64,000 nucleotides of DNA from Prostheceraeus crozeri (Eukaryota; Platyhelminthes; Polycladida; Euryleptidae). The translations under genes were made by a program, and so were the position numbers. The stretch is from contig CAJQUW010016154.1 in the NCBI GenBank assembly GCA_907163375.1, positions 1 to 64,000 of the forward strand. Reading direction: 5' to 3'. Under the pieces are notes generated by a model. It saw only the letters and a program-made list of their open reading frames with translations, ran no database searches and was not told the DNA's origin. This document shows positions 23,901 through 57,142 of this stretch, piece after piece. Within the stretch, counting starts at the first letter, position 1. Every line of letters starts with the position of its first letter.

Positions 23901-26900
23901 GACATTTTAACTGCAAGTTTAAGTCCTGATGGACCTTAATGTCACCACAATATTTTCAGTCAGCTGCTTTTCGTGAAGACTCGATTTTTACTGGAAATAA
24001 TTTTAAGTGCATGTATTTGGCTGTTTTGATAGATTATATGCGAGTTTCACGTGCTACATTTGTGAGAATATACCTAATCCTGGGCTGTCCTATAAGTTGG
24101 TATTTGGGGTTCCTAATGTGATGATTTTTCATTCGTTTGGTTGTTGATAGTGGTGCTATTTTCATATAATAGGGAGTCCATCAACATACAAAGACAGGGT
24201 TGAACATAAATAAAAAGTATTCATATGTTGCTACACTGCCAGTACTTAAAAATGGTCACTCTATCACAAAAAAGTCACCAGTCAAAAAGTCTTAAGTAGG
24301 CCTTGTTTGCGGTCTACCAATGTGTATTATAGCCATCGTTTATTGCTCAGTGGATCATGCCATGTTCATATGTGTGAATATACCCGTTTAATATTCGTTA
24401 ATTGGTATAATTTAGGAATCATTGATAATTCCATCTCCATTAATGCGGATAAAGAAGTAAAATATCAAAGCGAGTTTGGCCTTTATGCATCTCTAGTCTA
24501 GAATTGTTTCGCAGTAGAAATCGACTATATATCCTACACGTGGTGAAGGAAAAAGCTTTGAATCAATCTAATCTACAGTTATAAATAGAGACTTCGATGA
24601 AAATCATCCTGATATTCTCGACCACTCATGTCACCGAATTATTGCACAAGAATTGGGAGGATGTTGACCCATTTGGGTATGGTGATGAAATGCAGTACAA
24701 GGAAATATATTCCAATTGCTGGCTACCGTATATGCTCTACTCAGCATTCCAATAACCAGACCCCGGTGCCACGCTCTTGGACAGTTTGCTTCAAAATTTA
24801 ATAGCACATTTGTGAACGTTTCTTTTCTAAAGATGCTAGTTTCCAAATTATTCGTAATATTTATTTTAACATCCCAGAATGCTATACTATTGCCTCCAAT
24901 ATCTACAGTAAATATTAAAATTTTGTGTTGTCTATTTAAAAACTGGTGAAACCGTTCTACTTTCTTTATATCATCAAAAACGCAAATGCAATCATCTACA
25001 TATCTTGCGTATGATTGCATTTGCGTTTTTGATGATATAAAGAAAGTAGAACGGTTTCACCAGTTTTTAAATAGACAACACAAAATTTTAATATTTACTG
25101 TAGATATTGGAGGCAATAGTATAGCATTCTTGGATGTTAAAATAAATATTACGAATAATTTGGAAACTAGCATCTTTAGAAAAGAAACGTTCACAAATGT
25201 GCTATTAAATTTTGAAGCAAACTGTCCAAGAGCGTGGCACCGGGGTCTGGTTATTGGAATGCTGAGTAGAGTATATACGGTAGCCAGCAATTGGAATATA
25301 TTTCATGATGAAATTGAGAAAATTCTGAAAATCTTTGAATGCAATGGTTATACTAAGAACTTTGTTCTTAAAATTGTTTCAGTACAATGAACCATTTATT
25401 GAGGGGGGACATTTACAATGTAAGTGTGCAGTTAAGGATGCCTATCAGAAGAAAATGGAAGTTCTGACAAGTCGTGGACAAGTGAAAAATCTGAGCTTTC
25501 ATTATGACTATGACTGCAATGCGAGTAGATGGCTTACAGTTGAATGATTTGGTGCAAGAAATCTTTATCACACTGTTCATGTATCCGACGAAAACACACG
25601 AAACATTTTCATGTGTCTTGATTTGTGGGCTGGACCCAACAGGTCTTCTTTATCGTACCGTAATAAGTTTAAAATCTAAGTTAATAAGATTAATCGCATT
25701 TATCACGCAAGCTTAAATATATCGCAAATATTTTTATCTGAGCTATTTATACTATTAGAGCAAATATTCGTAAGTCTCCATTCGGTTCTGCTGCAAAGGA
25801 GACTTGTAGAATTCTTCCACTTCAGACGTCCTTGACACACTTAGTACTATCATCATAAGTTATTCAAAATTATTGAACGTGTTACTAATTTGAAAATGAC
25901 CATCATTGATATTTCATGCATTTTAGGTGGTGAGATTGGTAGGCTGCGTGATACTTTGTAATTCAACATCAAAGTTGATTGTGTGATATGATGTCAGTTC
26001 TGATTGCTTCTAGTGAATGTCAAAAATCTTCAGAATCCCCACAGAAGCCCTATGGGAGCTGTGGGGATGGCCTCAATACCCATACCCACCCCATACCCAT
26101 GGGTATCCCCACAGAATCCCCATTCCCACGGCAAGCCTAGGAATTCCCTAGGCCAATCCCTGAAGATTTTCTTCCATCGGGTAAACACACATGCGCGTTG
26201 TGAAGAATAACAAATTTATGTACTTATAAAAGTAATACAGGAGACCTCAGTCATCAATCAAAATTCTTCTTCTATCGTTTGCGATCGGGTTGAATTAATG
26301 ATAGGGCAAAAGGATTCATTAAAAATCACTAGATGATTCTGTATGATAGCAGCGACCCAGCCGAATCGCGGATCACTTTAACCCCTTAAGGACTGGTGGT
26401 TAAAGCCAATTGAAATAACCCAGCAACCCTTATTTTGTCTATCAGCATAAAAAATAACTCATACAAACAAAAATTGCGTTTCAACAAAGTTTCGTTTATC
26501 TTTGGTTTTGATTTGAAATCTGCCATATCGTGAGGTAAGTTTTGCCTTATATTTCGAACCTCTCAATAATCACCGTGAGCACTTGTGTAACTCTTATTAG
26601 TATTTTCTCCTAGAAAATAACCCATATTAGCAGACTAGACCACTTGACGCAAGACCGTACAGACTAATTTGAATTTTGGTGGTACATATATGAACCACTT
26701 GTCCTCAAGGGTAAATTTTCTCTATTATATTCTAGATTTCAAGTACCTGATAAAACCAATATTAATCATTCACAGACAACAATAGTTGTACAAAGTCAAG
26801 CTGTTTATGACATTATTCATCTAAGCATTGACTTTTTTCGTTGTTGCATATCCTACACTACATAATGCGCAAATGTAGAATGTGTGCAGGTCGATAGTCA

Positions 26901-29900: not shown

Positions 29901-32520
29901 TTTGACTTAATCCCCCTTGTGCCCACCGTCCTTATAAATAGGACGGTGCTCGAAATAATACTTAATGATCTAAGATATCCCTAGATCTGTGATATTTGAA
30001 CTATTAGATGCCTAGCGACCTATGTCACGCAATGTCATGCCGAACTTTTGAGATTTTATTACCTTGACTATTGTAATGGGTTAATTTATGTTTTTAATCA
30101 TTCAGATTTATATTGGTTGGTCTTCGAATTTCATAAATATATCATGCCGTGAGCAGTCATCATTCTTAAGGGTGAAACCGCTCGGAAATATGCCTTTTCC
30201 GCATAATAATTTTTGATTTTCTATTTATTGGGACATTTTGGGATTTTGTTTATTTTCTTCCAATTTGAAAAAGAATCTGAGGAGAAAACTACATGTACAT
30301 GTTATTATCCTTCTGGTGGTAGATCTTTAATTTATTAACACTATTCGATGACACTTTATACATTGGTAGGTAGTAATGTACTATATAAAGTAATAAAATT
30401 TAACATTCTAATCAATTAGTCTTGAACTTTGCTGGAAAATAAATGGTAAAATTGCATTAAATACGAAAACACAATTATTTAGCCTTTTTTTGATGAACAG
30501 ATGAAGAGCATCTCCGAAGTGGAAACTCAAAAATATATTCGCATGCTCTATAGAAACTTGAATAGTGATCAATTATCAGTCTTCGTACCCAGTTCACCCA
30601 GAACAGAGACAACATTGGTTCAAAAGAAATACGGAAAAAGTTTGATCCTTGGAAATTCTGTAGATGAAGAACAAGGCCACAGTTTTTGAAGTTTTATTTC
30701 ACGACATGTTTCGGTCAGCTCTCTTTCAGGTGCAGCGGTGGACTGACAGGCATTGTACAAAATCTACACTTTACGGAATTGAAATCACAATTGACAAAAG
30801 GCATACTACACTGAACCACAGAGCAAGCAATTGTAATCAGAAAATCAATATGGACACAATGAAGGTAGCGTGACGATGACAGGCTTATTGAAGTCAATCA
30901 CTGACACTCAGATGAAATAAAGAAAACCAAGATAGTAACAAACACATTATACTACTGAAAGTGGACAGTTTGTATACAAATTAAGATGTGAATGAAAGTC
31001 AACATAAGTTAAAGTTATGGATAATGAAGTTAAACGTGAAGTGAAAAGAATGAATAAATGAATACTGAAAAAATAACGATCAAAAATAAGAAAGTTAATT
31101 TCCTAAAATTTTCCTTATTATTTTCAATCGCTATTTTTTCAGTGTTCATTTATTCATTCTTTTCACTTCACGTTTAACTTCATTATCCATAACTTTAACT
31201 TATGTTGACTTTCATTCACATCTTAATTTGTATACAAACTGTCCACTTTCAGTATTATAATGTGTTTGTTACTATCTTGGTTTTCTTTATTTCATCTGAG
31301 TGTCAGTGATTGACTTCAATAAGCCTGTCATTGTCACGCTACCTTCATTGTGTCTATATTGATTTTCTGATTACATTTGCTTGCTCTGTGGTTCAGTGTA
31401 GTATGCCTTTTGTCAATTGTGATTTCGATTCCGTAAAGTGTAGATTTTGTACAATGCCTATCAATATAATTAATGTGTAATATAAAAAAATTGTACAAAG
31501 CTAAAGCTTGTAGCAAAAGTGAAATTACTTTAAAGTCAGCATTTAAGTTATTATTTAAATACATTTACGAATTTCTTCAAATCAGCAGTGGCCGAATAGC
31601 AACTCGTCTGGCGACCCAAACAAATTCGTCGTATAGAGTAGCAAAGTCGACTATTTAGACTAGACTCGGCATTACACTCACGAGAGCGAATGCCCGACCT
31701 TTAATTTCCAGATCGGATTTAGGCCAACATTTTCTTTCATAGGATCAGTTTTATAGTTTATTTCGTAGTGTTTTCTAGCAAGAATTTTTCTATTTGTAAA
31801 GTGACTTTTTTAACTTTAATAACCTGGAAAATTGCACTTCTTTGCTGTTCTCACAAATATATTAATATGCCGTATTCAAATATAAACATCATGTCAATCT
31901 AAAGAAAGCAAGGCTTACTTGCATTAATTTTTAAATGACTTGTCTGGCAAATCCTGTGTTTTGTTAGGTGGGAGATTAATAAAATGTATATATTTGTTAC
32001 TGTACAGCATAATCTGTAAGTTATTAGCCTTCAAATGATTCTGAATTTCTCAATATTTAAAGAAAAGAAAACACTAATTCAAGCAATAAATGGTGCTATC
32101 AACTTTCATAGACTTCATTCGATAAGTAAGAATTTAGCTCGCAAGAGCATAATCATTAAGTATCACCGAACTAAGATACATTGTTTGCTGATGCTCTCGC
32201 TGAAAGCTCAATTTCAGTGTGTTACATAAACCATGAGCGTCTTGCATATTCAATTTTGCGCCTTCCTCTGTGCAATGGCATGAATCAAAGATTATCCATG
32301 GCTTTTTTTCATGGCACTCATTAATTTACGAGGAAAAAGTTAAAAATGTACTTACCGTTTGGGTATCATCTTTGATGTAATGGAAAACCTTACTAATGTG
32401 ATTCTTCGTGCAGCATATTTCGGCTTGACAAAGTTGAACAACAAATAGGCTTATCAATATGAGAAGCATTTTTAAAAATTTCGAAATTTCTGTCACTGCG
32501 TGATTCCTGAATCTGACCAT
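2747..32520 (-). CDS. Ependymin-related secreted protein, four-exon gene
   Basis: Four minus-strand exons join in phase: exon 1 32356-32469 (or from 32520), exon 2 5713-5920, exon 3 2976-3131, exon 4 2747-2910. All introns are GT..AG and the phases agree (0/0, 1/1, 1/1). The product is about 214 residues, the usual size for ependymin-related proteins, which are secreted, calcium-influenced glycoproteins of uncertain ligand. Seen: a signal peptide with a hydrophobic core LLILISLFVVQL, a CC pair just after it, YEDFVAKKLVY, a later DYNERKSYSLYSNGSC, then FAVTKDGNCYI and a terminal VFQIPSNC, matching in order the conserved family landmarks. Five N-x-S/T sequons fit a secreted glycoprotein. Intron 3 is 65 bp, while intron 1 is about 26.4 kb and packed with transposons. 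A GTAAGT at about 2812 could splice to a further exon; the unspliced frame stops at 2747. No break is seen. Confidence 0.75.
2976..3131 (-). CDS. Ependymin-related gene, exon 3
   Basis: The acceptor actttcag and donor GTAAGT flank 156 bp. The exon begins with two bases that complete the phase-1 codon of exon 2 and ends with one base. The peptide carries two NIT glycosylation sites and the box FAVTKDGNCYIKYVTF, which corresponds to the conserved 'T..gC.Pv' strand of the family, although proline is replaced here. Confidence 0.7.
3547..4822. mobile_element. hAT-like non-autonomous element inside intron 2
   Basis: The left end reads CAGGGTTGCCGGTAGGAA and the reverse complement of the right end reads TAGGCTTGCCGGTGGGAA, an 18-bp imperfect terminal inverted repeat. 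It is flanked by near-identical octamers, aaaaattc (3539-3546) and aaaaattt (4823-4830), as expected for an 8-bp hAT duplication. Direct and inverted 'gggaatgggac' words lie inside both ends. No transposase frame is present. The hAT assignment rests on the octamers and the CAGGG-type terminus. Confidence 0.6.
4823..5712. other. Intron 2 remainder, AT-rich with a GA-rich run
   Basis: Nothing coding is recognised. There is a very AT-rich palindromic stretch near 5030-5090 and a short GA-rich run (5142-5167). Confidence 0.4.
5713..5920 (-). CDS. Ependymin-related gene, exon 2
   Basis: The acceptor is a pyrimidine-rich tract ending tttcag and the donor is GTATGT. The 208-bp exon encodes a segment with NETLYEDFVAKKLVY near its start and DYNERKSYSLYSNGSC near its end, followed by a second cysteine in FCQ. 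This is the central beta-rich part of the ependymin fold, where one conserved cysteine follows an aromatic-rich strand. The exon ends in phase 1. Immediately downstream on the gene strand the frame continues as intron. Confidence 0.7.
6093..6270 (+). pseudogene. Non-LTR reverse transcriptase C-terminal relic
   Basis: The frame includes LGVTLNSRFNWKDHIKIVCSK, the 'LG..(l/i)d..L.w..Hi..i..k..k' box that follows the catalytic domain of Jockey/CR1/RTE-type LINE reverse transcriptases. Only about 60 residues remain and the frame runs into low-similarity sequence at about 6275. There is no catalytic motif, so it is a dead fragment. Confidence 0.55.
6429..6834 (+). pseudogene. hAT transposase C-terminal dimerisation domain relic
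   Basis: The translation contains VYPNLAIMLRTFFTIPVASA, then AERSLSKLKLIKLFIRSSM and DERLPLAIISI. This is the hATC dimerisation signature (yPn...lR...iPvs.AsaERsfSkLk.iK...Rs.m...RL..la...i). A short AT-rich insertion with a stop (about 6645-6672) interrupts it; the same coding sense resumes as ESEVAREIQLISLREK and ends at a TAA near 6834. The RNase H core is missing upstream. It lies in intron 1 of the ependymin-related gene. Confidence 0.75.
6835..7871. other. Non-coding; one poly-G run
   Basis: No gene is seen. A run of 11 G residues (7816-7826) stands out in AT-rich sequence. Confidence 0.5.
7880..9665. mobile_element. Non-autonomous hAT element with exact 8-bp target duplication
   Basis: The octamer CTCTTATT occurs at 7872-7879 and 9666-9673, directly outside the ends TAGTGTTTGAA and (reverse complement) TAGTGTTTAAA. 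Both ends then carry arrays of the palindromic word AATTACCGGTAA (three copies on the left within 80 bp, three on the right within 45 bp). The 1.79-kb interior has no transposase; it has a diverged internal duplication around 9148 and 9367 (gagcgt(g/c)tggc..ttt.cctagaac). The TIR start and 8-bp duplication are diagnostic for hAT. It sits in intron 1. Confidence 0.85.
9674..12289. other. Non-coding intronic sequence
   Basis: No gene, RNA or delimited element recognised; only frames under 100 codons with no family resemblance. Confidence 0.4.
12290..12545 (+). pseudogene. Non-LTR reverse transcriptase fragment (YVDD box)
   Basis: The frame reads VMRQVRTSGGLNLDLNCDRL followed by AYVDDVDLMAESL. 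This matches the catalytic palm C motif (Y-x-D-D) and the sequence just before it in LINE-type reverse transcriptases, where the consensus is L-A-Y-A-D-D. Only about 50 residues are recognisable and the frame ends at a TAG near 12440. The rest of the polymerase is not found nearby. Confidence 0.6.
12546..14852. other. Non-coding intronic sequence
   Basis: No recognisable gene or element ends. A 66-codon frame at 13574 has no family features. Confidence 0.4.
14853..15852. repeat. Large imperfect foldback (inverted repeat) element
   Basis: Three blocks on the left return as reverse complements on the right, in mirror order: 14853-15003 with 15690-15852, about 15045-15072 with 15597-15622, and 15190-15250 with 15530-15582. 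The left arm has about 110 extra bp near 15080-15190. Shared words include tgtcgcc(g/a)cagtttt, gttaagaaaacag and acaccaca..ttgccccg. The loop and flank also repeat the module 'aactgtggtgtaa', including a diverged direct copy near 15985-16035. No transposase gene is present. Confidence 0.75.
15853..16301. other. Flank of the foldback element with repeated modules
   Basis: A direct diverged copy of the loop segment (ttggtc.aa.tgtg.tgtatgaga.tttttt.cacagtt) occurs near 15985-16025, so the element may extend past its visible arms. No coding sequence. Confidence 0.4.
16302..17434 (-). pseudogene. Penelope-like element reverse transcriptase, N-terminal and palm part
   Basis: Minus-strand frames in order carry a start near 17434 and KRRKFSPAPRSNIYKL, then RELR interrupted by a short tandem duplication with a stop near 17300, then RDHF, GADKGGAFVVLDYEFYKKRM with SDTSTYKV, TPFLYGLPKLHK with FRPFISS, and finally IAGTAMGTKVAPT. 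These are the signature blocks of Penelope-like elements: adkg..vvv...y, LPK.HK..., RPI.S, and GTAMGT in place of the usual QG box. The YxDD block and GIY-YIG endonuclease are missing here. At least three frame breaks are present. A separate C-terminal piece of the same class lies at 24.7-25.4 kb. Confidence 0.85.
17435..18595. other. Non-coding intronic sequence
   Basis: AT-rich, no gene recognised. Confidence 0.4.
18600..18706. mobile_element. Solo end of a hAT-like repeat (CAGGCTTGCCGTTGGG)
   Basis: The reverse complement of the right edge begins CAGGCTTGCCGTTGGGATTG, the same terminus as the 3.5-kb hAT-like element and the 26.0-kb fragment. The rest is a small palindrome of 'gattggg / cccaatc' words. 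No matching left end or octamer was identified. Confidence 0.45.
19774..19860 (-). ncRNA. tRNA-like pol III unit (tRNA-derived SINE head or tRNA pseudogene)
   Basis: On the minus strand an A-box match TAGCGCAGTGG and a B-box match AGTTCGAATCC are about 45 nt apart. The ends TGTGC/GCACA can pair as a short acceptor stem, and CAAAAC-t-GTTTTG forms a long variable-arm-like hairpin, as in class II tRNAs. The T-stem is imperfect and no clear anticodon arm forms, so a functional tRNA is unlikely. Five Ts follow the 3' end, which could terminate pol III. It lies inside piggyBac element 1, between the left TIR and the transposase. Confidence 0.5.
20171..21942 (+). pseudogene. piggyBac transposase with one frameshift and one stop
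   Basis: An acidic N-terminus (GDDSDDDIND) is followed by the piggyBac DDE core. Catalytic aspartates are seen in QCIDEISIS (codon 20912), ADNYFVGLP (codon 21149) and MGGIDLNDK (codon 21485), the D-D-D pattern of the family. Just after SLYPY (about 21522) the frame shifts by one; the new frame continues through a TAG at 21661 that looks like a CAG-to-TAG change, then runs to the C-terminal cysteine-rich domain (RCAQC..., RCRKC, KNCFYLYH) ending near 21942. The enzyme would cut and paste at TTAA. No in-frame ATG lies at the true N-terminus; an acceptor-like tgtctttccag at 20160-20170 suggests an upstream exon. Otherwise well preserved, so recently active. Confidence 0.92.
22357..24630. other. 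Intronic sequence with a 103-codon unassigned frame
   Basis: The only notable frame is 22975-23286 (+, ATG start, 103 codons, several cysteines), with no recognisable domain; it could be chance. Nothing else is supported. Confidence 0.35.
24702..25020 (-). pseudogene. Penelope RT C-terminal palm/thumb, left arm copy
   Basis: The minus frame contains RYVDDCICVFDDIKKVERFH, the YxDD catalytic block, then GGNSIAFWDVKI, TSIFRKETFTNVLL and GMLSRAYTVASNW. These are the post-catalytic blocks of Penelope-like polymerases ('flD..i' and 'S..P..yK...i..l..R'). It is truncated at the arm end and lacks the GIY-YIG domain. Confidence 0.85.
24702..25304. repeat. Near-perfect palindrome of a Penelope RT segment
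   Basis: Arms 24702-24995 and 25011-25304 are each 294 bp and reverse-complementary, with very few mismatches by eye (for example one W/L codon difference). The spacer is 15 bp. Both arms encode the same Penelope-like reverse transcriptase stretch read outward from the centre on the two strands. Confidence 0.9.
25010..25390 (+). pseudogene. Penelope RT C-terminal palm/thumb, right arm copy
   Basis: Mirror image of the left arm, with LDVKI where the left arm has WDVKI. It extends about 85 bp beyond the palindrome (FECNGYTKNFVLKIV) before a stop at 25388-25390, so this orientation is the original one and the left arm is the secondary copy. Confidence 0.85.
25391..26009. other. Non-coding
   Basis: No support for a gene; two 70-codon frames here have no family features. 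Confidence 0.4.
26010..26150. mobile_element. GGGGAT-rich hAT-like end fragment
   Basis: The right edge, reverse-complemented, reads AGGCTTGCCGTGGGAATGGG, the same terminus as at 4.8 kb and 18.7 kb. The body is a run of 'tggggat / atcccca' and 'acccat' words. No left terminus is identified. Confidence 0.45.
26378..28561 (+). mobile_element. piggyBac element 2 (TTAA ends, degenerate)
   Basis: TTAA at 26378-26381 is followed by CCCCTTAAGGACTGGTGG; the right end reverse-complements to CCCTTTGAGAACCATAG and TTAA (28558-28561). Inside, an inverted pair of about 36 bp (26678-26713 and 28394-28429) carries the word CCTT(g/a)AGGACAAGTGGTT and the palindrome GTGGT-acatatatga-ACCAC. The interior encodes the second half of a piggyBac transposase. 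Confidence 0.75.
27060..28378 (+). pseudogene. piggyBac transposase C-terminal half in two blocks
   Basis: Block 1 (27060-27245) encodes EKGDISGSVEEDGKVAYCQW, MDKRPVTMPSNF, RRVKGRS and QKPVM, the strands between the second and third catalytic aspartates. Block 2 (about 27930-28378) encodes MGIVDLTDQLKECYQIDRRS with the third aspartate, FFDIINLSILNAHIMY, and a cysteine-rich C-terminus RRRCFLCSG...CSACEKSFC...NCFYDF. Between them, a GTGAGT at 27246 and a ttttttcacag at about 27930 look like an intron, but the phases do not join cleanly. No N-terminal half or first two aspartates were found. Confidence 0.8.
28562..28985. other. CCGATT-rich dispersed repeat and flank
   Basis: From 28575 to about 28690, words such as CCGATTCGATT, TCCGATTCAATTATCCGATT and TTCGGATAATCGG recur in both orientations, as they do around piggyBac element 1 (19010-19079, 22357-22400). 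No coding sequence. Confidence 0.45.
28986..30084. mobile_element. piggyBac-like non-autonomous element 3
   Basis: TTAA (28986-28989) plus CCCATTAATGCTCATAGTCC at the left and TTAA (30081-30084) at the right, whose inward reverse complement is CCCATTACAATAGTCAAGG. Subterminal imperfect palindromes: AGTCCTTTTTAAGGACT (about 29006), GTCCTGTTTTAGGAC (about 29206) and CCGTCCTTATAAATAGGACGG (about 29928), plus an inverted GTGGGCAC/GTGCCCAC pair. There is no transposase. Confidence 0.7.
30085..30744 (+). other. Unassigned frame after an acceptor-like site
   Basis: A 62-codon frame (30501-30689) begins right after a pyrimidine-rich ttttttgatgaacag and is charged, but matches no family I know. Otherwise nothing is seen. 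Confidence 0.3.
30745..31463. repeat. Long hairpin element, about 345-bp arms
   Basis: The left arm (30745 to about 31090) returns reverse-complemented at about 31113-31463 with few mismatches; the centre is near 31105. Outer ends are gacaggcattgtaca and tgtacaatgcctatc. No target duplication and no gene. The matching frames read from the two arms reflect the inversion only. Confidence 0.85.
31464..32355. other. Start of intron 1 of the ependymin-related gene
   Basis: AT-rich; no other feature is supported. Confidence 0.4.
32356..32520 (-). CDS. Ependymin-related gene, exon 1 (signal peptide)
   Basis: The frame from 32520 contains two candidate starts. The second ATG (32467-32469) gives a compact signal peptide, MLLILISLFVVQLCQA, with likely cleavage before EICC. 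The exon ends ...DDTQT followed by a consensus GTAAGT donor at 32355. The phase is 0, as required by exon 2. The CC pair directly after the signal peptide is typical of invertebrate ependymin-related proteins. Exon 1 is 26 kb from exon 2, so its membership rests on phase, the CC pair and spacing: about 27 residues separate the cysteine pair from the Y-x-D-F box, close to the family's usual distance. Confidence 0.6.
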
Positions 32521-32831
32521 CCAAGTGCTCGTACTGTGGTAATGACCAATTCAAAATTCATGTCAATCAAATTTTGGCATGGAGACGTCAGCATGCAGGT
32601 CTAAACCATTGTCTAAACCATGGACCAAACCGTGAGCTTCTAGATATCTAGAATTCCGTTAGTTCATGGACTCATAGATATACCATATAACACCTGGACT
32701 GAAATCTGAAATTCATTTCTGCACAAGACGGCCGATTTGCCTCTATATCTACCATAGTTGGTCAATAAAAGCAGTATATACCCAAGAAGCTAACAATGTA
32801 TGATTGTTATGCTGGTTTGAAGTGTGGCAAT

Positions 32832-33064
32832 TGTTGTAGTGTGATAAACAGCTGCATGTAATTGCCTCTCCTTTATCTCTGCTCGTTAAGTATCTCTGGT
32901 CATGTTAGACGCCGCCAGCTGCTATTACATGTTTAAGGTGTCAAGTCACTTAAAGCCGCTGGCGTTGCTAATAAACTGAACTTGCTTGTCGGTCTCAGCA
33001 CAAGCCTGGTTGTTCTCTCTCTCTCCCACACACTCGAACATATAGTAAGGGCCAAGTTAGAACA
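32832..33064 (+). repeat. 5' LTR
   Basis: 233 bp, TGTTG...GAACA, identical to the 3' LTR. Holds a GCTAATAAAC (AATAAA at about 32970) that can serve as polyadenylation signal. Confidence 0.97.
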
Positions 33065-35100
33065 TGGCGTCGCGAATAGACTTTAAAATGGCTCCTTCCT
33101 TCGATATTGAATCCGAGTCCCATCTGTACCGTGAATGGCGATCAATGTGGACGGGATTCGAGTGCCTCAGTGGGATCTCTGCGATCAGTGACACTGATAA
33201 GCGTGAAGAAACTCGACTTCAGGCCTTCTATCTTTCTGTCAGCAAAGAAACTCTCCGCATCGTGAATCACTTGCCTGTGATTGACCGCAAATCCTTGGAC
33301 TCCGTACTCTCTGCGCTCGAAGATCACATCGTCGGGACTACAAACGAAGTATTTGAACGTCGCGAGTTTTGGAAACGTACTCAACGTGAGAGCGAGTCGT
33401 TTGCCAGCTATATTCTTTCTCTCCGCGAGCTAGCTGCCCGATGTAACTTTGCGCGATGCTGCACGAGTTGCGAAGCTTTGCAACTCCGTGATCGGGTCAC
33501 CACTGGACTGCGTGATGCTAGCACGATTGAGAAGCTGCTGTCGGTCGGCAGCAACTTGACCCTGGAGAAGCTCAAAGACATTTGTGAGGCTGACGAGTCT
33601 GCTAAGGAGAAGTGTGCTGCTGTTACTTCTTCTGCTTCCCTGAACGTTCTACGGAAGAAGACCTCGTCGTACAAGGCCGATAAGAAGAAGAAGAGAGAGA
33701 CTCAGAGAGCGGGCGAGTGCAAATTCTGCGGGCGGACACACGAGTTACGTAAGGAGCGTTGTCCAGCCTACGGAAAGTCGTGCACTCAGTGTGGTGGCAA
33801 GAACCACTTTGCTGCCAAGTGTCCTGCTAAGGACAAGTCTGCTAACCTGTTGGGGTGTCTGATCGCGTCTGTGTCGTCTCCTGAATCTCTCGTCGAGGTA
33901 ACTGTTCAGTCTGGCCGCGTCAATGTCGGCAATCTTCGAATGCTTCCTGACACTGGATCGGATATCACTGCTGTTCCGTCTTCAGCCTTGGCGAGAAGAC
34001 CGAAGCTCAAACGGTCTTTCTTGCGCCCTAAACACGCTGGTCGCCAGCGACTCGACTCTGCCGGCTACTTCGATGCTGTTCTCACTCTTGGAGCTGTAGA
34101 GGTGTCTACTCGCGTTTACGTGATAGACATCTTGGAGACACCTCTACTGTCTCGCAAGGCATGTCGGGCTCTCAAACTCATTCCGGAGGACTTCCCGAAA
34201 CAACACGTGGCATCGATATCTCAGGTCTCAACCTGCTCCAAGGACTCTCTGATGCAGGAGTATGCCGATGTATTTACCGATCGGATATCGGTAATGAAAG
34301 GTGATCCCTTCCGCATTGTTCTCAAAGATGGCGCTCAGCCTTACTGCGTCAACCACGTTCGCCGCGTCGCTGAGCCACTCAAAGACAAGTTAAAGACAGA
34401 ACTCGATTCTCTTGAGTCTCAAGGTATTATTGAGCGTGTGATCGAGCCTACAGAATGGTGCGCCCCCATCACTGTGCAACAAAAGAAATCTGGATCGGTC
34501 CGTCTGTGCGTGGATCTAAAAAATCTCAACAAGTACGTTGTTCGAGAACGGTGGCAATCTCCCACTCCGTTGGAAGTGGTTACGGGCCTTCCACAGACTG
34601 CTAAATTTTTTACGACAGTGGATGCAGTAAAAGGCTACCATCAGATTCCTCTTGCCGAGTCCACGCGACATCTCACTACTTTCATCACTCCTTTTGGTCG
34701 CTACAAATACAAGCGCGCACCCTTCGGCCTATCTTCGATCTGCGAGCACTACAATCGTCGCGTCTCCGAACTCATCAGTGAGCTACAGAACACTTACCAT
34801 GTGGTCGATGATGTCATCATCGCTGATGCTACCCTTGAGCAGCATCAGAAGAATGTGAGTGCATTTCTCACTAAGTGTCGTGAGCAGGGCGTTACTCTGA
34901 ACAAAGACAAATTTCATTTCGCACAGCCTGAAGTGACCTTCGCCGGGTTCAAGGTCAACCAGACTGGATATACGGTTGACGACGACTTACTCCGAGCGAT
35001 CCGCGATTTTCCGGAGCCGAAGAGCCGAAACCGACTTGCGGTCCTGGTTCGGGTCTGGTCAATCAACTCTCCTCATTTTCCGATCAGCTGGAGAAACTGA
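33064..35100 (+). CDS. Gypsy Gag-protease-reverse transcriptase, shifted near its end
   Basis: One 678-codon frame from the ATG that overlaps the LTR end. An alpha-helical capsid-like region (to about residue 200) is followed by two zinc-knuckle-like modules at residues 219-255 (CKFCGRTHELRKERC and CTQCGGKNHFAAKC), an aspartic protease with DTGSD at 296-300, and a reverse transcriptase with CAPITV, RLCVDLKNLN, FTTVDAVKGYHQIPL and FGLSS. The catalytic motif is V-V-D-D (second D at 583) where Gypsy elements usually have Y-x-D-D. Gag and Pol are in one frame. After FPEPKSR (about 35030) two successive one-base shifts carry the coding sense into the next frame, so the last 23 codons of this frame are out of frame. 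It makes virus-like particles and copies the element's RNA. Confidence 0.93.
   Translation: MASRIDFKMAPSFDIESESHLYREWRSMWTGFECLSGISAISDTDKREETRLQAFYLSVSKETLRIVNHLPVIDRKSLDSVLSALEDHIVGTTNEVFERREFWKRTQRESESFASYILSLRELAARCNFARCCTSCEALQLRDRVTTGLRDASTIEKLLSVGSNLTLEKLKDICEADESAKEKCAAVTSSASLNVLRKKTSSYKADKKKKRETQRAGECKFCGRTHELRKERCPAYGKSCTQCGGKNHFAAKCPAKDKSANLLGCLIASVSSPESLVEVTVQSGRVNVGNLRMLPDTGSDITAVPSSALARRPKLKRSFLRPKHAGRQRLDSAGYFDAVLTLGAVEVSTRVYVIDILETPLLSRKACRALKLIPEDFPKQHVASISQVSTCSKDSLMQEYADVFTDRISVMKGDPFRIVLKDGAQPYCVNHVRRVAEPLKDKLKTELDSLESQGIIERVIEPTEWCAPITVQQKKSGSVRLCVDLKNLNKYVVRERWQSPTPLEVVTGLPQTAKFFTTVDAVKGYHQIPLAESTRHLTTFITPFGRYKYKRAPFGLSSICEHYNRRVSELISELQNTYHVVDDVIIADATLEQHQKNVSAFLTKCREQGVTLNKDKFHFAQPEVTFAGFKVNQTGYTVDDDLLRAIRDFPEPKSRNRLAVLVRVWSINSPHFPISWRN
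33065..33082 (+). promoter_or_regulatory. Primer-binding site
   Basis: TGGCGTCGCG starts at the base after the 5' LTR, with the TGG expected to pair with a tRNA CCA end. The tRNA was not identified. The Gag ATG overlaps the LTR's last base. Confidence 0.6.
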
Positions 35101-35666
35101 TGGAACCTCTTCGTCCTCTTCTCAGAGAGGCTAACGAATTTCTTTGGACCGACGCCCACCAATCTCAGTTCGTGCTCACGAAGAATGCTCTCTGTACTGC
35201 TCCGTTCATGGCCTACTATTCTCCAAAGCGCAAGACTGCTCTTTTCACTGACGCGTCGAGGATTCACGGCATCGGATATGTTCTCAAGCAGCAGCAAGAA
35301 GATGGTACGTGGTGTGTGGTACGTGCTGGGTCGCGCTGTCTGAGCAGCGCTGAGTCCAGGTACGCTATGATCGAGCTCGAAATGCTTGCCATCGTTTGGG
35401 CCGTCATCAAGTGTCGACTGATGCTCGAAGGACTGCCCCAGTTCGAAATCGTGACCGATCACAGACCCCTAATACCAATTCTGAACAAATACACTCTTGA
35501 TCAGATCGAGAATCGTCGTCTCCAGCGTCTGCGAGAGAAACTCGATCCCTACTCATTCTCTGCTTCATGGATCTCGACTTCGGAGAACAAGACTGCTGAT
35601 GCTTTGTCTCGAGCCCCCATAAGTGAGCCTACTACTGCTGATGAACTCGGTGAAGATTTGTTCTGA
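35100..35666 (+). CDS. Gypsy RT connection and RNase H
   Basis: The frame opens MEPLRPLLREANEFLWTDAH, the usual end of the RT thumb, and continues into RNase H with LFTDASRIHGIGYVL (first D), SRYAMIELEMLAIVWA (catalytic E), FEIVTDHRPL (second D) and NKTADALSRAP (final D). A one-base shift near 35655 takes the coding sense to another frame, so the TGA at 35664-35666 is caused by the shift. It degrades the RNA strand of the hybrid and continues polyprotein maturation. Confidence 0.93.
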   Translation: MEPLRPLLREANEFLWTDAHQSQFVLTKNALCTAPFMAYYSPKRKTALFTDASRIHGIGYVLKQQQEDGTWCVVRAGSRCLSSAESRYAMIELEMLAIVWAVIKCRLMLEGLPQFEIVTDHRPLIPILNKYTLDQIENRRLQRLREKLDPYSFSASWISTSENKTADALSRAPISEPTTADELGEDLF

Positions 35667-35900
35667 ACTCCCTCTCTGCCTCTGTTGACTCGACTCCGAT
35701 CGACCTACCTACAATTCAGGCCTCTGCGAGAGCTGACGAGAATTATCAGTTCCTCCTTGACACTGTTCGCTGCGGGTTTCCAGATCACCGATCTCAGCTG
35801 CCTGAGTCCGTACGACCCTTTTGGAATGTGAGAAATCGACTGTCGATTGAGGACGACATCGTGATGTTACGGTTGCCGAATCGTCATTCCTCAAAAACTC
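35660..35900 (+). pseudogene. Gypsy RNase H-integrase linker, own frame
   Basis: In a third frame the translation reads through VDSTPIDLPTIQASARADEN, a spacer typical between RNase H and integrase, to SIEDDIVM. A one-base shift near 35885 then moves it into the integrase frame. Visible only as a short open stretch without its own start. Confidence 0.7.
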
Positions 35901-36641
35901 CGTGCTCGAATCCTCGAGGACATGCTGCTGTCTCACCAGGGCATTTCAAAGATGCGTGAGCGAGCCACTGTATCATTCTATTGGCCTCGACTGACCTTCG
36001 ACATCGAGAAGGTGGCCTTGTCCTGTCGTCCTTGCCAACAAGCGTTGCCATCCCAGCAAAAGGAGCCCATGCTCGAACGCATGCGGGCTACACGAGCCTT
36101 TGAAGCGGTTCACGCTGACTTTTTCACGTTCGGTGGCAAACAATACCTTGTTTACGTAGACGAGTACTCTGGATGGCCTAGCCTCAACTGTTTTGGAGTC
36201 CATGCAACTGCTCGCGATCTTATTTCTGCGCTCCGATCTCGCTTCTGCGAGAAATCTGTTCCCGAGAGACTTTATACTGATGGCGGGCCCCAATTTACTG
36301 CTACTGCCCTTGCTTCTTTCTTGAAAAGTTGGGGAGTTCAACACGTCATCTCATCACCGCACTACCCTCAGAGCAATGGTGCTGCTGAGGCCTCTGTAAA
36401 GGCCTTGAAGAAGATAGTTCGGGGCTGCTGTGTCAACAACTCTGTGGACATGGACAAAGTATCTCGGGTGTCCTACAATACTGCAATACGCCTCGCTACA
36501 CGGGATCTTCTCCTGCCCAGCTTCTGTTCGGCCATCCGATCCGCGATCTGCTGCCTGCACACCGGCGTGCATTCGACGAGAAATGGCAGAAAACCGCAGA
36601 CGAAGTGGAGAAGAAGGCAAGCTCTAAGCGCGATCAGGTAG
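35890..36641 (+). CDS. Gypsy integrase (HHCC + DD35E)
   Basis: An HHCC zinc domain (H in LSHQGISKMRER, then SCRPCQQ) is followed by the catalytic core: D at 36117 (HADFFTF), D at 36279 (YTDGGPQF) and E at 36387 (GAAEASVKAL), with exactly 35 residues between the last two. It inserts the cDNA into the genome; the GCAAT duplication is its footprint. Around 36495, after YNTAIRLAT, a one-base shift moves the coding sense into the frame of the C-terminal domain, so the tail from 36500 to 36641 is out of frame. Confidence 0.93.
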
Positions 36642-37012
36642 TAGAGGAGTACAATACTCGCTCGAAGTCCCTGGCGCCCCTCAAGGTTGGTGATCCCGTG
36701 GTGCTGCAGGATCCTTCGTCCAAACGGTGGGAGAGATATGGTGCTATCGTTGAGATAGGTAATCATCGTGATTATCTCATCAAGCTGCCGAGCGGGCGAA
36801 TTCTAAAGCGAAATCGGCGATTTCTTCGCAAAAGAGGTGTCGTGCTGCCTGCGAATGGGAACGCGCCGTCATCTCCACCTGCACATACATTGGCAGGGCC
36901 TCCGAGTGATTCCCGTGCGCGCGCTCATCGCGAGGGACGAACTCGCTTTGGCAGACTGTCCGCCAAGCCTCATCGACTCGAGATGACTCCTCGGTCAAAC
37001 AGCTACGTTTAA
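36500..37012 (+). CDS. Gypsy integrase C-terminal domain
   Basis: The shifted frame carries the LLFG.P(i)RD segment, then a GPF/GPY-like module with LKVGDPVVLQDPSSKRWERY and YLIKLPSGRILKRNRRFLR, and a basic disordered tail to a TAA at 37010-37012. It is the DNA-binding end of integrase. The TAA lies 33 bases before the 3' LTR. Confidence 0.85.
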   Translation, partial: TGSSPAQLLFGHPIRDLLPAHRRAFDEKWQKTADEVEKKASSKRDQVVEEYNTRSKSLAPLKVGDPVVLQDPSSKRWERYGAIVEIGNHRDYLIKLPSGRILKRNRRFLRKRGVVLPANGNAPSSPPAHTLAGPPSDSRARAHREGRTRFGRLSAKPHRLEMTPRSNSYV

Positions 37013-37034
37013 CTTTCTTGTGTTAGCTCTCTTC

Positions 37035-37045
37035 AGGAAGGGAGA
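37035..37045 (+). promoter_or_regulatory. Polypurine tract
   Basis: AGGAAGGGAGA directly abuts the 3' LTR; it should prime plus-strand synthesis. Confidence 0.85.
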
Positions 37046-37278
37046 TGTTGTAGTGTGATAAACAGCTGCATGTAATTGCCTCTCCTTTATCTCTGCTCGT
37101 TAAGTATCTCTGGTCATGTTAGACGCCGCCAGCTGCTATTACATGTTTAAGGTGTCAAGTCACTTAAAGCCGCTGGCGTTGCTAATAAACTGAACTTGCT
37201 TGTCGGTCTCAGCACAAGCCTGGTTGTTCTCTCTCTCTCCCACACACTCGAACATATAGTAAGGGCCAAGTTAGAACA
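37046..37278 (+). repeat. 3' LTR
   Basis: 233 bp, identical to the 5' LTR; followed by the GCAAT duplication. Confidence 0.97.
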
Positions 37279-37283
37279 GCAAT

Positions 37284-37356
37284 GACCATGAGATACGAAT
37301 GCGCGTTAGCGCATGAGTATCTATGGTCATTGCCGCACGCCAAACCAGTATAATAA
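37284..37356. repeat. Hairpin at the left end of the recombinase unit, split by the Gypsy element
   Basis: Ignoring the Gypsy insertion, 32804-32831 plus 37284-37304 pairs with 37309-37356: left ATGCTGGTTTGAAGTGTGGC, right reverse complement ATACTGGTTTGGCGTGCGGC, then CAATGACCAT on both and an apex ATGCGC-gtta-GCGCAT. The arms are about 47 bp with scattered mismatches. Confidence 0.85.
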
Positions 37357-37504
37357 TCACATTGTTCAATAGAAATCTATGGAAGTCATGAAATGGATAT
37401 TTACTTGACAGGCTTATCGATAGCTCTAATTCTGATTTCTAAGCTAATATTTCAAAAAAAAGCTAATATTCTGGATAATCTATGTAGTCAATCCGTGACA
37501 TAGT

Positions 37505-37516
37505 ATTGTCTGCACG
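37505..37516 (+). repeat. Recombinase-site-like 12-mer, upstream copy
   Basis: ATTGTCTGCACG, identical to the copy at 39362-39373. Confidence 0.65.
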
Positions 37517-37586
37517 ATTTTTCAAATCTATTTGAAATATCTCACATCATTTAGTCATCTCAGTTCAACGTTATTTCGCTATCATT

Positions 37587-39268
37587 ATGGATGCCAGACT
37601 GATTAATTTGAGCAGATTTCCCAACAACATGATAAGTGGGCTCACCAGTGATCAAATTTCGGCTGAAATAGACAGACAGTATATAGAGGATAACGTCATT
37701 TGTGATGATGAATTCTCCGAACATTATATGGACGACATAGAACCGCTTTTTGGACATGCAACGGATCTCAATGATGAAAATAGTATCAAAGATCTTGAAG
37801 GTAAGTAAACCTTTTATTCCTTACCAATATTCCATAACAATATATCGGTAAATATGCAGAACAAAATGAATTTCTGTGTTGAGTCGATAAAACAATAAAA
37901 ACGTGGTTCATCCACTAATTACACTAACTAATGTACATATAATTACAATACTATATTTTAATCGATATTTCTGTAAATGACAACTTGCTAATTAAACTGC
38001 ATCCTGAAAATATTGTTATTCCATTTCAGATGATGTAACCGCAATGGAAAAATCAATGCAAATTGAATCAAGCATCAAACAAGAAAAGCATCACATGAAG
38101 ATGTTTCATAACTTCTTGGAAAAGTATCCTGCTTTAAGCATTGATTTTAAACAGTGTACTGAGAGTGAATTAGCAAAAGTATTACGTTTGTTTTATGGAT
38201 CTTTGAAGAAAACTGATGATAATAATTATGCCCCCGCCAGCCTCATATGTATTAGAGCGAGCATCTTTCGGTATTTTATGAGGTCGAGAAAGATAAACAT
38301 AATTACTGACGATAGATTTTACGATGCGAATAAAACATTGAAATGCTTGGCCCGTAAATTCATCGCATGCGGAGGTCAAGTTAAGCATTTTCAAGCCATC
38401 GAATCTGAAGACCTCAGTAAATTATCGGTTTATTTTTGATCGCAGTAATCCGACAGTTCTATTACCCGAGACGTATTATAACATCATTTACTATTTCGGG
38501 ACCAGAGGGAGAGAATGGTTCCGTAATTTAAGGGAGGATCGTTTCATATTTGATAAGGACTCTGAGGGACTCGATATCGTTAGTTTTAACGAAGGAAAAA
38601 TTAAAAACGTAGGTAATGTTCTCACACGGGAAGGGATGGAGAATGTGAAGGAAGCGTTGATGGTATCAAGTGAAAACAAGGCTGAATGCCCTGTTACATG
38701 CCTGAAATTATTTTTAGAAAAGCGCCGTGAATCAATTGTTGATGGTGATTCATTATCCACCCCTTTTTTCCTTAAAGCCAGAAAAAAATTTTCGAGCAAT
38801 TCTTGGTATTGCGAGAAGCAGACCATAGGTGTAAATACTCTCGGGAAACTTATGAGTATTATTTCAAATGAGGCTCAGTTAGGAAAGTCTTACACAGCTC
38901 ACAGTATCCGACCGACAGTTATCTCCGAACTATCCCAAGCCGGTTATAAATTGACGGATATTTGCAAAATAACTGGTCATAAGCAGACGAAGACTGTAGA
39001 GAGATATCTGCAATATGGATGTCGACGAAAGTCAGAAATGAAGAGAATGAGCCAAAGTTTGAAAAGAAGTTTGCATGAAGAGAAATCGGAAGAAGAAAAT
39101 AAAGAGGAAGAGAAACAAGTCAGTGTGATGGTCAAAAGAGCAAAAGATGTGCAAAGTTCACAAGACGTGATCATATGTGAATCGGAAGAAATAGTGCAAA
39201 AGACTGTTGAAAGAATGCCGACTGCCGTTCTTGAAAAGAATGGTGCCAGGCTAATGTTTTTTCTTTAG
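37587..39268 (+). CDS. Crypton-like tyrosine recombinase, two exons, one frameshift
   Basis: Exon 1 (37587-37800) starts at a good ATG and ends at GTAAGT; the intron ends ttccatttcag and exon 2 (38030-39268) continues in phase. One extra T in the T5 run at 38433-38437 creates a TGA; one base later the frame runs open to 39268. The conceptual product is about 483 residues. It has an N-terminal SAM-like helical core-binding part, then the recombinase domain with Arg in GTRGREW (about 230), His-x-x-Arg in HSIRPTVISEL (362/365), His in GHKQ (388) and the nucleophile Tyr in VERYLQY (about 397). All catalytic positions are present. The family cuts and rejoins DNA through a phosphotyrosine; Cryptons use it to move as circular DNA. 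A lysine/glutamate-rich tail follows. The frameshift may be a sequencing indel or a real recent break. Confidence 0.85.
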
Positions 39269-39346
39269 ACATTTCTGTGTTTTTTGCACAGATGGTGTAA
39301 TTTGATGTCATCATGTGTTTTTTTGGCATTTTTGAAAAATAAAAAA

Positions 39347-39377
39347 AGCGTGCGGACAATGATTGTCTGCACGCCTT
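39347..39377. repeat. Perfect-spacing hairpin after the recombinase gene
   Basis: GCGTGCGGACAAT-g-ATTGTCTGCACGC: two 13-bp arms with one mismatch and a single-base centre, 80 bp after the stop. A-runs precede it and T-runs follow, so it could also act in 3'-end formation. Confidence 0.85.
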
Positions 39378-39438
39378 TTGGCATTGTCAGAACTATGACT
39401 TTTGCATTTCTATTGAACAATGACGATATTATCAACTG

Positions 39439-40944: not shown

Positions 40945-43105
40945 CAGAAAAGGAAATTGTACTCACGTCATTCACCCTTGAAGCATGTGGGTTAGGTTAG
41001 TCAAGTGGGTCAAAGATGTGGTGGGTCAGGTGGGTCGTGGGTCACATAGGCCGTGGATCAGGTAGGTCATGGGTCAAGTTTCGTTGACCCATTTCCAACT
41101 CTGGCGTGTCGTCGTTCAGGGTTGCGCGCTGATCATTTGATTGAAGGGTTTGAGGCAATCTTACCTACAAACGTGTGTGTTGTTTTACGGTAATTTGTTA
41201 ATCACCTGATCTCCGGCCAAGCTCCTATGGAAGTAGCACCATTCTATGCCGGTGCATCAATTACGACACTCATCAAATCGGATAATAATACAGATCTTCA
41301 TATTCGCCTGATTGCTGTTGGTGAGGTGGTAAGACGTCTAGCAGGAAAGTGAATTGTTAAATATTTTTCGGAAAAAGCCAAAGGAATTCTTAATCCTTTT
41401 CAATTTGGAGTATCCTGTCCTGGTGGAGTTGAGAAGGTGGTGCATAGGGCAAGAGACATCATCAATACTCATTGGAACGATGATGATTTTGTAATACTTA
41501 AGGTTGACATGAAGAATGCCTTTAATACAATTTCTCGACAGGCCGTACTAGAAGATTGCGCAAAGCATTTACCATCTCCCTTACCATGGGTTTCGTGGTG
41601 TTATAGTCAACATCCAAAGTTATGGCATGCTACTGGATCTTTGACTTCGGCTACTGGCGCTCAACAAGGGGATCCGTTGGGGCCTCTTATATTTGCGCTT
41701 ACTCTACATCGTCTGGTGATAACTTTAAATGAAATACCTGAACTACACTCTAAACCAGCACCTCCTAAATCACACACTAAAGCGAGACACTATTCGTAAC
41801 CAATAAAAAATCCTAAAGCAAAGCGTTTTAGGAGGCTAGCGCACTAGAGTTATTGTTCTCTTTAGTATGTCAACACTCTATTTCACGCAACCTCCAAAAA
41901 TTCTAGTGTGTGGCGCTTTAGGATGCAGATTTCCCCGATTTTAGGAGGTGCTGGTTTACAGTGTATTAATTAACATGTGGCATTTGGATGATGGTTTTTT
42001 GTGTGGTACACGACAAGCTGTAGAAGACAACATTGCGATCATCCAAAATGCTCTATCATGGTCTGACTTGAGTATTAATCTCAAAAAGTGTGAACTGTTT
42101 AGTCAGCAAAGTCTAGACTCTTTCCCGCCAGAAATATTGAAAAGTAATGAATCTAATTTGGTGGTTCTCGGTGCCCCGATCGGAATTGAGTTGACTGATG
42201 ATGTTCGGATACAGTGTCAGTTGAGTCTGAGACATGATGGACTTGGGTTGAGATCTCTTGAAAATCATGCTTCAGCTGCTTACTTGTCATCTGTTGTTGG
42301 AACAAATTCCAATTTAATTCAGACTAACGCAGTCTTTGATTCTTTACGATCCCGATTTGGCTCTAGTGCATCAGTGGTCACTTGTCGCAATCAGAGGTTC
42401 CTGTCAGGACTAATTGAGGAGGATCAGTTGGAGATTTTGATTTCTAACTGTACTCCAACTGCAGACATGGATCGGTTGATTGCTGTTTCATCCTCAAGAA
42501 CGTCTGATTGGATGGCAGCTATACCTATTCCCGGACTGAATCAACATCTTGAACGAAATGAGGTTCAAGTGCCATCAAATTGAGGCTTGGTCTACGTTTG
42601 GGTGTCGAGAATTTGTGTCCACTGTGCCCAGGAAAAATAATGGACAAATTTGGATATCACGGTCTGACATGTAAACGAGGTCCGGATGTCGTACGTCGAC
42701 GCAATCAGTTGAGGGACACCTTATTCAGCTATTGTCAACAAGTTCAGTTGAGTCCACAGCTAGAAAAAAGTCCCGGCAGCAACAACAGCGACGTCCTAGT
42801 TCCTTCCTGGTCTCTCGGCAAGGCTGCAGCATTTGATCTTACTGTTGTACATCCGCTCAAACCACGTAACATTGACGGAGCGAGTACAACAGGGAGTGAA
42901 TGTCTTGCTAATGATGAGGACAGGAAGAGGAGAATCAATGGGGATGCTTGTGAACTGCAGAACTGGAGCTGCATACCTCTGGCAGTTTCTGTCTACGGGT
43001 CATGGGGAGATCTGACCATTACAAGCATCCACAAGATCGCTGACCGCCTTGTGATGCAGAAGAATATATGTCGCCTAACATTTCTCGACATCAAATGTTC
43101 CAACG
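40945..43105 (+). mobile_element. Non-LTR element with restriction-like endonuclease, copy A
   Basis: This block is homologous, in inverted orientation, to 57462-59285. It starts with a degenerate GTGGGTCA-rich stretch (about 40988-41078), then holds reverse transcriptase and endonuclease sequence. A 222-bp MITE interrupts it at 41744. Poly(A) and target duplications are not evident. Confidence 0.8.
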
Positions 43106-56710: not shown

Positions 56711-57142
56711 AATACCTCTGAATTCTGTTGATCAGACCAAGAAGGCTGATGATGAAAAAGTCTCCTTGCTTTTCGGCGTAATAATTGTAATTATATGTAA
56801 AAGAAAATTTACAAGGTCCCGACGCGTTTCGCGAATTCTCGCTTTGTCTAGGGACGAGCGTGAAGAGGACAAACTGACAGTCAAACTCGTCTTGAAATAG
56901 ATGATGGTGATGTCCTCTTCAAGACGAGTTTGACTGTCAGTTTGTCCTCTTCACGATCGTCCCTAGACAAAGCGAGAATTCGCGAAACGCGTCGGGACCT
57001 TGTAAATTTTCTTTTACATATAATTACAATTATTACGCCGAAAAGCAAGGAGACTTTTTCATCATCAGCCTTCTTGGTCTGATCAACAGAATGAACAATC
57101 GTCAACTCCTGTTAACGGCTATCCTCTACAATACCTCTGAAT
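56711..57142. mobile_element. Inverted pseudo-LTR pair of a Penelope-like element
   Basis: Arms 56722-56896 and 56919-57092 (about 175 bp) are nearly perfect reverse complements around a 22-bp centre. After the right arm comes a 37-nt tail, then AATACCTCTGAAT (57130-57142), a direct copy of 56711-56723 on the left: a 13-bp target duplication. Inverted terminal units plus a roughly 35-nt tail extension is a known arrangement of Penelope-like insertions. Each arm carries a hammerhead-like core (see findings). No coding domain remains. Confidence 0.65.

Follow-up and report, generated by a model that had tools for sequence, protein, structure and literature searches.

A CryptonA-type transposon with a terminal hairpin and an inverted inner copy of its joined ends in Prostheceraeus crozeri

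The window (the whole stretch of 64,000 nucleotides of Prostheceraeus crozeri DNA that was analyzed) contains a tyrosine recombinase gene bracketed by hairpins, inverted sequence and a repeated motif. The locus raises the question of what kind of mobile unit this is, where it ends and what part the structures around the gene play in its movement. An earlier note on this DNA took the unit to begin near 37.3 kb and proposed either the remnants of an attachment system or a Crypton variant with terminal inverted repeats. The features of the unit are given in Table 1.

Table 1. Features of the Crypton unit and of the element nested in it, in window positions
Feature	Position	Strand	Evidence
Left CAATG (terminal direct repeat, copy on the target side)	32794..32798	+	flanks of other copies unrelated up to CAATG
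Left tip and first part of the terminal hairpin's 5' arm, broken by Gypsy	32799..32831	+	continuous in other copies; joined palindrome
Gypsy LTR retrotransposon inside the left hairpin, foreign to the Crypton	32832..37278	+	LTRs, target duplication, domains
Remainder of the left hairpin: rest of the 5' arm, then the GC-rich apex GCGCGTTAGCGC and a 3' arm that repeats the left tip in reverse complement	37284..37359	+	
Inner site: CATTG (37360-37364), then reverse complement of the right end	37360..37389	-	alignments; 17-mer exact in 20 of 22 copies
Subterminal motif ATTGTCTGCACG, 5' of the gene	37505..37516	-	exact; unchanged in 20 of 22 copies
Exon 1, tyrosine recombinase	37587..37800	+	ORF list, copy alignment
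Intron, GT..AG in 22 of 22 aligned copies	37801..38029	+	copy alignment
Exon 2 (QRICH1/DUF3504/Phage_integrase), frameshifted in the window copy	38030..39268	+	Pfam, alignment
Right subterminal palindrome GCGTGCGGACAATGATTGTCTGCACGC	39348..39374	.	29-nt stretch 39347-39375 unchanged in 15 of 22 copies
Right-end arm ATGACTTTTGCATTTCTATTGAA	39395..39417	+	copy ends, inner-site alignment
Right CAATG (terminal direct repeat, copy on the element side) and right end	39418..39422	+	27 of 32 right sides

The recombinase gene and the class of the unit

The gene has two exons (37587-39268) and matches three Pfam families: QRICH1 (PF25561), DUF3504 (PF12012) and Phage_integrase (PF00589), the last with a score of 26.7 that is marginally below the curated cut-off of 27.1. 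The earlier description of a nearly intact two-exon recombinase with its catalytic positions agrees with the domains and residues. The window copy has one frameshift in this gene, in exon 2, and R, K, H, R, H and Y are all present in an alignment of the 483-residue read-through query. In read-through numbering, R230, K263, H362 and R365 are invariant across 13 sequences and H388 is almost invariant. From reading of the alignment, in which two relatives end upstream of this position, Y397 would be the catalytic tyrosine.

A search of 5.8 billion proteins gave 13 relatives of the recombinase, the best 64% identical and all on contigs of at most 4,125 bases. A second, alignment-based protein search added two more. 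The nearest relative found, P0001, is 61-65% identical to the focal recombinase. Its predicted fold (13 sequences, mean pLDDT 71.9) has Cre-loxP structures as the top Foldseek match (E 2e-9), and the matches also include the Tn1549 integrase and QRICH1. The exon-2 ORF had no match among PDB sequences, and tblastn upheld no recombinase relative in the viral contigs and genome contigs. Pfam detected no reverse transcriptase, RNase H or DDE transposase domain in the three gene ORFs of the unit, where other domains were only sub-threshold, and Rfam at gathering scores had no match in the whole window.

On its Pfam matches and database relatives, the unit is a CryptonA-type DNA transposon of about 2.17 kb. 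The suggestion that it belongs with the Cryptons is borne out. As in Cryptons, there is a tyrosine recombinase with catalytic residues (from domains, residues and predicted fold), and there are short terminal direct repeats that match the target, with CAATG at both ends and a single CAATG in three empty sites. The CAATG repeat contradicts the 2011 characterization of CryptonA as having no terminal repeats. Since membership in CryptonA rests on the recombinase, the repeat is read as a fuller description rather than as an exclusion; hence the label CryptonA-type.

Ends, genome copies and the CAATG target

The left end of the unit is interrupted by a Gypsy element. This is a young insertion with identical LTRs of 233 bp each, a GCAAT target duplication (32827-32831 and 37279-37283), and integrase and RT/RNaseH domains. 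When the flanks were joined across it by script, they formed a palindrome of about 123 nt. Because Gypsy splits the left hairpin, the true left end is 32799, beyond the nested element and not near 37.3 kb. The left hairpin of the earlier note is thus real, but only part of it had been seen.

The window also contains other repeats. An element that matches reverse transcriptase and is probably non-LTR is present twice in opposite orientation (41020-43067 and 57489-59227); the two are 97-100% complementary in six blocks, with 14-17 kb between the arms. Near-perfect long hairpins occur at 24702-25304, 30744-31463 and 56722-57092, with arms of 294, 358 and 175 nt that are 96-99% identical. The hairpin at 24702-25304 encodes an RT-like fragment without a Pfam match, which is taken here to be Penelope-like. 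An open frame of 494 aa at 20084-21565 matches the piggyBac-type domain DDE_Tnp_1_7 (E 8e-58).

In the 2.05-Gb assembly (14,165 contigs), 40 of 166 candidates were scored, which gave at least 42 matches to the focal element. Most of the long matches are 95-98% identical. The flanks of 32 right sides and 31 left sides were read; one of the latter is on a contig that starts within the element. The right sides end exactly after ...ATTGAACAATG (39422) in 27 cases. The five exceptions are L022 and L026, which share one insertion and stop three bases short, and the truncated copies L035, L047 and L052. The same two copies, L022 and L026, are the exceptions to the conservation of ATTGTCTGCACG.

The left tip TATGATTGTTATGC is reached in 21 of the 31 left sides, with a variant TAAG... 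in L031. It is preceded by CAATG in 20 of these 21 (L030 has CAAGG), and L049 has five extra bases between CAATG and the tip. The base before CAATG is A in 13, T in 5 and G in 2 of 20 flanks, L026 being omitted because it repeats the L022 insertion. L023 and L032, whose flanks are unrelated, begin at the same internal base (37352) without a hairpin and are preceded by CCATG and AAATG, respectively; this may be an alternative left end. Since these two copies lack the hairpin, it may be dispensable, and L023 has an intact recombinase frame despite the loss. Other left sides fall short of the tip as other or truncated left parts (L024, L035, L037, L051), a copy with another Crypton inside (L042), duplicated 3' pieces (L055, L057) or a contig end (L039). 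L056 and L058 are near-identical pieces on contigs C9651 and C6428 and are not independent.

Among the matches listed, these two contigs carry eight 3' pieces (query 540-2088) that are 98% identical and about 9-39 kb apart. The one piece read per contig has the same flanks, which indicates a duplicated block. Other hairpins, mostly with GC-rich apices and short loops such as GGCTGCGTTAGCAGCC, occur in the flanks of L026, L028, L030, L034, L042, L043, L051 and L081, and the focal copies L028 and L034 are inserted close to such a hairpin. These are perhaps the ends of further Crypton families or short derivatives.

Three empty sites have a single CAATG. A tandem-repeat unit adjoining L034 is unoccupied and alike at 70 of 72 positions. 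The target repeat of L030 is unoccupied in the flank of L031 and is 88% alike over 227 columns, the flanks of L030 having a few extra bases relative to this empty counterpart. L022 and L026 share flanks, those of L022 match elements of the FG family at 94-97%, and the FG elements L071 and L073 carry the unoccupied site GTGAAACAATGCAGAAAAAAGCGTG. The change from one CAATG to two upon insertion is as expected for exchange within a shared short sequence, and CAATG-guided insertion is well supported. A 5-bp target duplication of fixed sequence by another enzyme would give identical junctions; the type of the recombinase favors exchange within CAATG.

The alignment of copy edges and empty sites that the earlier note had called for changes its picture of the ends. 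Its 17-bp TIR (37360-37376 and 39406-39422) is a perfect inverted pair and its right copy is terminal in the 27 right sides above, but the left copy lies about 110 nt inside the element. The left edge is the hairpin tip after CAATG. The ends are set by a 5-bp direct repeat, and the unit is not a TIR-bearing Crypton variant. A search of the assembly for the joined ends of a circle or tandem junction gave no match at 0 or 1 mismatch. There were four matches at two mismatches, all of which deviate on the right-end half, like ordinary left junctions. Contig C13846, a candidate for an assembled circle, proved to be a 27.7-kb contig that starts within the element.

The Crypton was active recently. 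The copy alignment (37340-39423) comprises 22 copies: the window copy with its parts joined across Gypsy, L039 and 20 fetched loci. Substitutions relative to the majority range from 0.2 to 1.1%. The full two-exon frame is preserved in 6 of the 22 copies. The dN/dS between copies is about 0.8, so coding changes are nearly neutral, as expected after insertion. The GT..AG intron is kept in every copy, which argues against a spliced-RNA intermediate.

The terminal hairpin and the inner junction copy

The hairpins, the inverted sequence and the repeated motif were rightly noticed, as they sit in end regions common to the copies. The terminal hairpin is about 119 nt long. From the left end, the order is the left tip (L), the apex, the reverse complement of L, CATTG and the reverse complement of the right tip (R). 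On the opposite strand the inner part reads R-CAATG-L, which is the sequence formed when both ends are joined; the inner site and the 3' hairpin arm are an inverted copy of the circle junction. In L020, the inner site matches the junction at 43 of 49 aligned positions in the L half and at 26 of 32 in the R half. In the R half, all 17 positions beside the crossover are unchanged, and two bases (TA) are absent at the L side of the joint. Identity between the two hairpin arms is not maintained, as it would be in a template copied in every cycle.

Inverted 17-mers 200-5000 bp apart occurred in 3 of 30 shuffled windows. A gapped extension of the inverted pair (47-48 columns) was matched by 1 of 2000 shuffles in one scoring, but was ordinary under looser scoring with longer flanks (score 23, with the 95% point of the null at 24). 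Since this significance varies with the scoring, reliance is placed on the exact 17-mer and on the copies. The predicted pairing of the ends with the inner site is stronger than in all 300 shuffles (-41.9 versus a minimum of -22.0 kcal/mol, and -21.4 versus -15.1 kcal/mol), so on these folding energies such pairing is possible. Inversion of the gene by recombination between the inner site and the right end was considered and rejected, as the hairpin is on the 5' side of the gene in all 16 tip-reaching copies among the first 21.

The layout recurs in other CryptonA-like families of this genome. CryptonA-like recombinase genes are numerous there: a search of the same genome with P0008, the protein of a relative, gave 4924 loose candidates, of which 95 were scored, yielding at least 95 matches, many with open frames. 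Six further families were represented by two copies each of like score or length, picked before their ends were seen. The hairpin and inner copy are present in six of seven families including the focal one, although FI shows them in one copy. In F480, F505, F476 and FG the hairpin is directly followed by an exact reverse copy of the right end. FI copy B has both structures, and the sequence it has in common with copy A starts only downstream of them. In FH, neither hairpin nor inner site was found in the two copies read. The structures are therefore not just remnants in the window copy, as one of the earlier proposals had it.

The right-end 30-mer recurs exactly in the left region over at most 17 nt in the focal family, 11 in F480, 14 in F505, 13 in F476, 13 in FG and 15 in FI, and none of 500 shuffles reached this length in any of these six families. 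The corresponding value in FH is 7 nt, which 224 of 500 shuffles reached. The longest match in F476 is a neighboring repeat, and the tip itself is matched over 12 nt (TATTGTTACATC). Counted from the first base of the left repeat, the reverse copies start at a distance of about 110-115 nt; in FI, whose left end is based on one copy, the count is from the palindrome. The hairpins match their own reverse complements at 84-94% of aligned positions with 6-20 gap positions. Between families their similarity is limited and local: 9 of 15 pairs score above all 100 shuffles, and the highest score is 39, where about 230 would be possible. In five of the six hairpin families the apex is GC-rich and centered on TTAG, TAAG, TAG or CAAG, GCGCGTTAGCGC being an example; FI copy B has no such apex.

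The right ends are AACAATG in the focal family, TACAATA in F480, AACAATG in F505, AACAATA in F476, GACAAT in FG, AACAAT in FH and TACAA in FI. The repeats of F476 are AATG on the left and AATA on the right. As left repeats outside the focal family rest on two copies each, the crossovers there are less certain. The recombinases of the other five hairpin families are 38-55% identical to P0008 and the focal one is 35% identical.

The subterminal motif was earlier said to occur in at least five copies. Three exact copies of the 12-mer exist in the window (37505-37516, 39349-39360 and 39362-39373), but those inside the left hairpin, read from the sequence, align only with a 1-base gap. At up to two mismatches there are 11 copies in the window versus 7.2 expected on average, a count reached by 13 of 100 shuffles, so the motif is not enriched. 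The right palindrome as an exact pattern had no match in viral contigs. In F480, F505 and F476, a distinct stem motif of each family recurs near the right end as exact words of 12, 11 and 18 nt, and in FG it recurs in the 5' UTR as an exact word of 11 nt; none of 200 shuffles equaled any of these. The evidence is weak in FI (9 nt, 13 of 200 shuffles) and at chance level in the focal family (7 nt, 45 of 200), where one inserted base sets the stem copy apart from the others. Motif placement is alike across families and the sequence is different, which is the pattern that a putative family-specific binding site would show. The earlier proposal that the recombinase may bind the motif is thereby supported indirectly.

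Possible movement and relation to known systems

The unit is probably a recently mobile CryptonA-type transposon whose recombinase joins the ends at CAATG and inserts the element at a genomic CAATG, leaving one CAATG per junction, with the hairpin and inner site as a putative cis-acting structure. The recombinase would bind half-sites flanking CAATG and join both ends into a circle with the joint ...ATTGAACAATG-TATGATTG..., and the circle would insert at another genomic CAATG. Exchange may take place inside a core such as GCATTTCTATTGA-ACAATGT-ATGATTGTTATGC, with arms GCATTTCTATTGA and GCATAACAATCAT around a 7-bp spacer. Such a core fits the usual tyrosine recombinase site, with arms of 11-13 bp and a spacer of 6-8 bp (PMC3212892), but it is a guess, since only 7 of 13 positions are the same in the two arms. 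Both ends might be held together by the hairpin and the inner site, either by single-strand pairing or as an extra duplex recombinase site.

If they act purely as double-stranded DNA, they would be extra recombinase sites for synapsis or self-regulation and no folded stage would occur. This is a real possibility, if less than likely. The inner site is a near-complete pair of half-sites around CATTG and copies of the subterminal motif lie near both ends; however, about 110-119 nt of self-complementarity, in six families with only limited local similarity, exceeds the needs of a binding site. Rather unlikely, and offered tentatively, is a route in which CryptonA elements move as a single strand, folded or splinted. 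In it, the 5' end would lie on the 3' hairpin arm with the 3' end beside it on the inner site, and the recombinase would act on the resulting duplex junction. If true, this route would work on the same principle as the "internal complementary region" of DIRS but need no reverse transcription, and that region may have evolved from it.

It is improbable that the layout is a functionless scar, inherited from an inverted insertion in the left end of an ancestral Crypton and later deletions. FH, L023 and L032 exist without it and the hairpin arms have diverged, but a scar should decay, and five other hairpin families keep both the self-complementarity and an exact right-end copy about 110-115 nt in. 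Palindromes are common in this genome, with several in the window and in the flanks of copies. That the hairpin is one of these, an unrelated element beside the gene by chance, is hardly credible, since the left junction is where it begins in 21 of 31 left sides (L022 and L026 being one insertion) and occupies the same position in other families; the copies already contradict it. It is very improbable that the unit is a DDE transposon with terminal inverted repeats or a DIRS-type retrotransposon that has been broken. DIRS1-like elements typically carry an internal copy of their joined ends (PMC3266345), and a 17-bp inverted pair is present, but the tested ORFs have no reverse transcriptase, RNase H or DDE domain, intron splice sites are kept in all 22 copies, and the left inverted copy is not terminal.

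The focal CryptonA-type transposon shares with described CryptonA elements (PMC3212892) a DNA-only nature and, as the only gene found, a tyrosine recombinase related to DUF3504/QRICH1. Kojima and Jurka (2011, PMC3212892) reported no terminal repeats in animal Cryptons. The main text of that account does not contain "hairpin" or "palindrom"; the focal element adds to it a direct repeat of 5 bp at the ends, a terminal hairpin and an inverted copy of the junction. CryptonF and CryptonS of fungi, oomycetes and a diatom also have short direct repeats at both ends, of 4-6 bp and thought to be a recombination substrate. They differ in recombinase group and host, and their description in that paper, as far as it was available, mentions no hairpin (PMC3212892). 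CryptonV is cited as target-site specific (PMC8869645).

Among the top-ranked titles, starts of abstracts and passages of the openly available literature, no description of a Crypton hairpin or internal junction copy was found, nor an account of how animal Cryptons move. Animal Cryptons have given rise to the conserved host genes KCTD1, ZMYM2/3/4 and possibly QRICH1 (PMC3212892). The exact ends, target, empty sites, intact copies and recurring end structure make the ends and movement of animal Cryptons testable.

Likenesses also exist outside the Cryptons. In integrons, IntI is a tyrosine recombinase that acts on the folded hairpin DNA of attC (PMC11641012); that system serves bacterial gene capture, and the likeness would lie only in a possible mechanism. 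Helitron2 has a 5'-terminal hairpin whose outer arm is able to pair near the 3' end, but it differs in its RepHel enzyme, two hairpins and rolling-circle model (PMC3627910).

The terminal hairpin ending in a reversed circle joint has so far been described for a related retrotransposon group, the DIRS1-like elements. Inside these elements lies an inverted copy of the joined ends, which totals 85-130 bp and is centered on a short circle-junction sequence that is also used for integration (PMC3266345). They also have RT/RNase H, inverted terminal repeats and complementary regions at the 3' end (PMC3266345), whereas the focal element has no RT, keeps its intron and has its copy at the left end, not identical to the ends. 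The internal complementary region of DIRS has been proposed to hold both ends side by side (PMC3266345, PMC5633606). Poulter and Butler proposed that DIRS arose from a Crypton joined to a reverse transcriptase (cited in PMC6681497), and the likeness of the layout described here to the internal complementary region bears on that origin.
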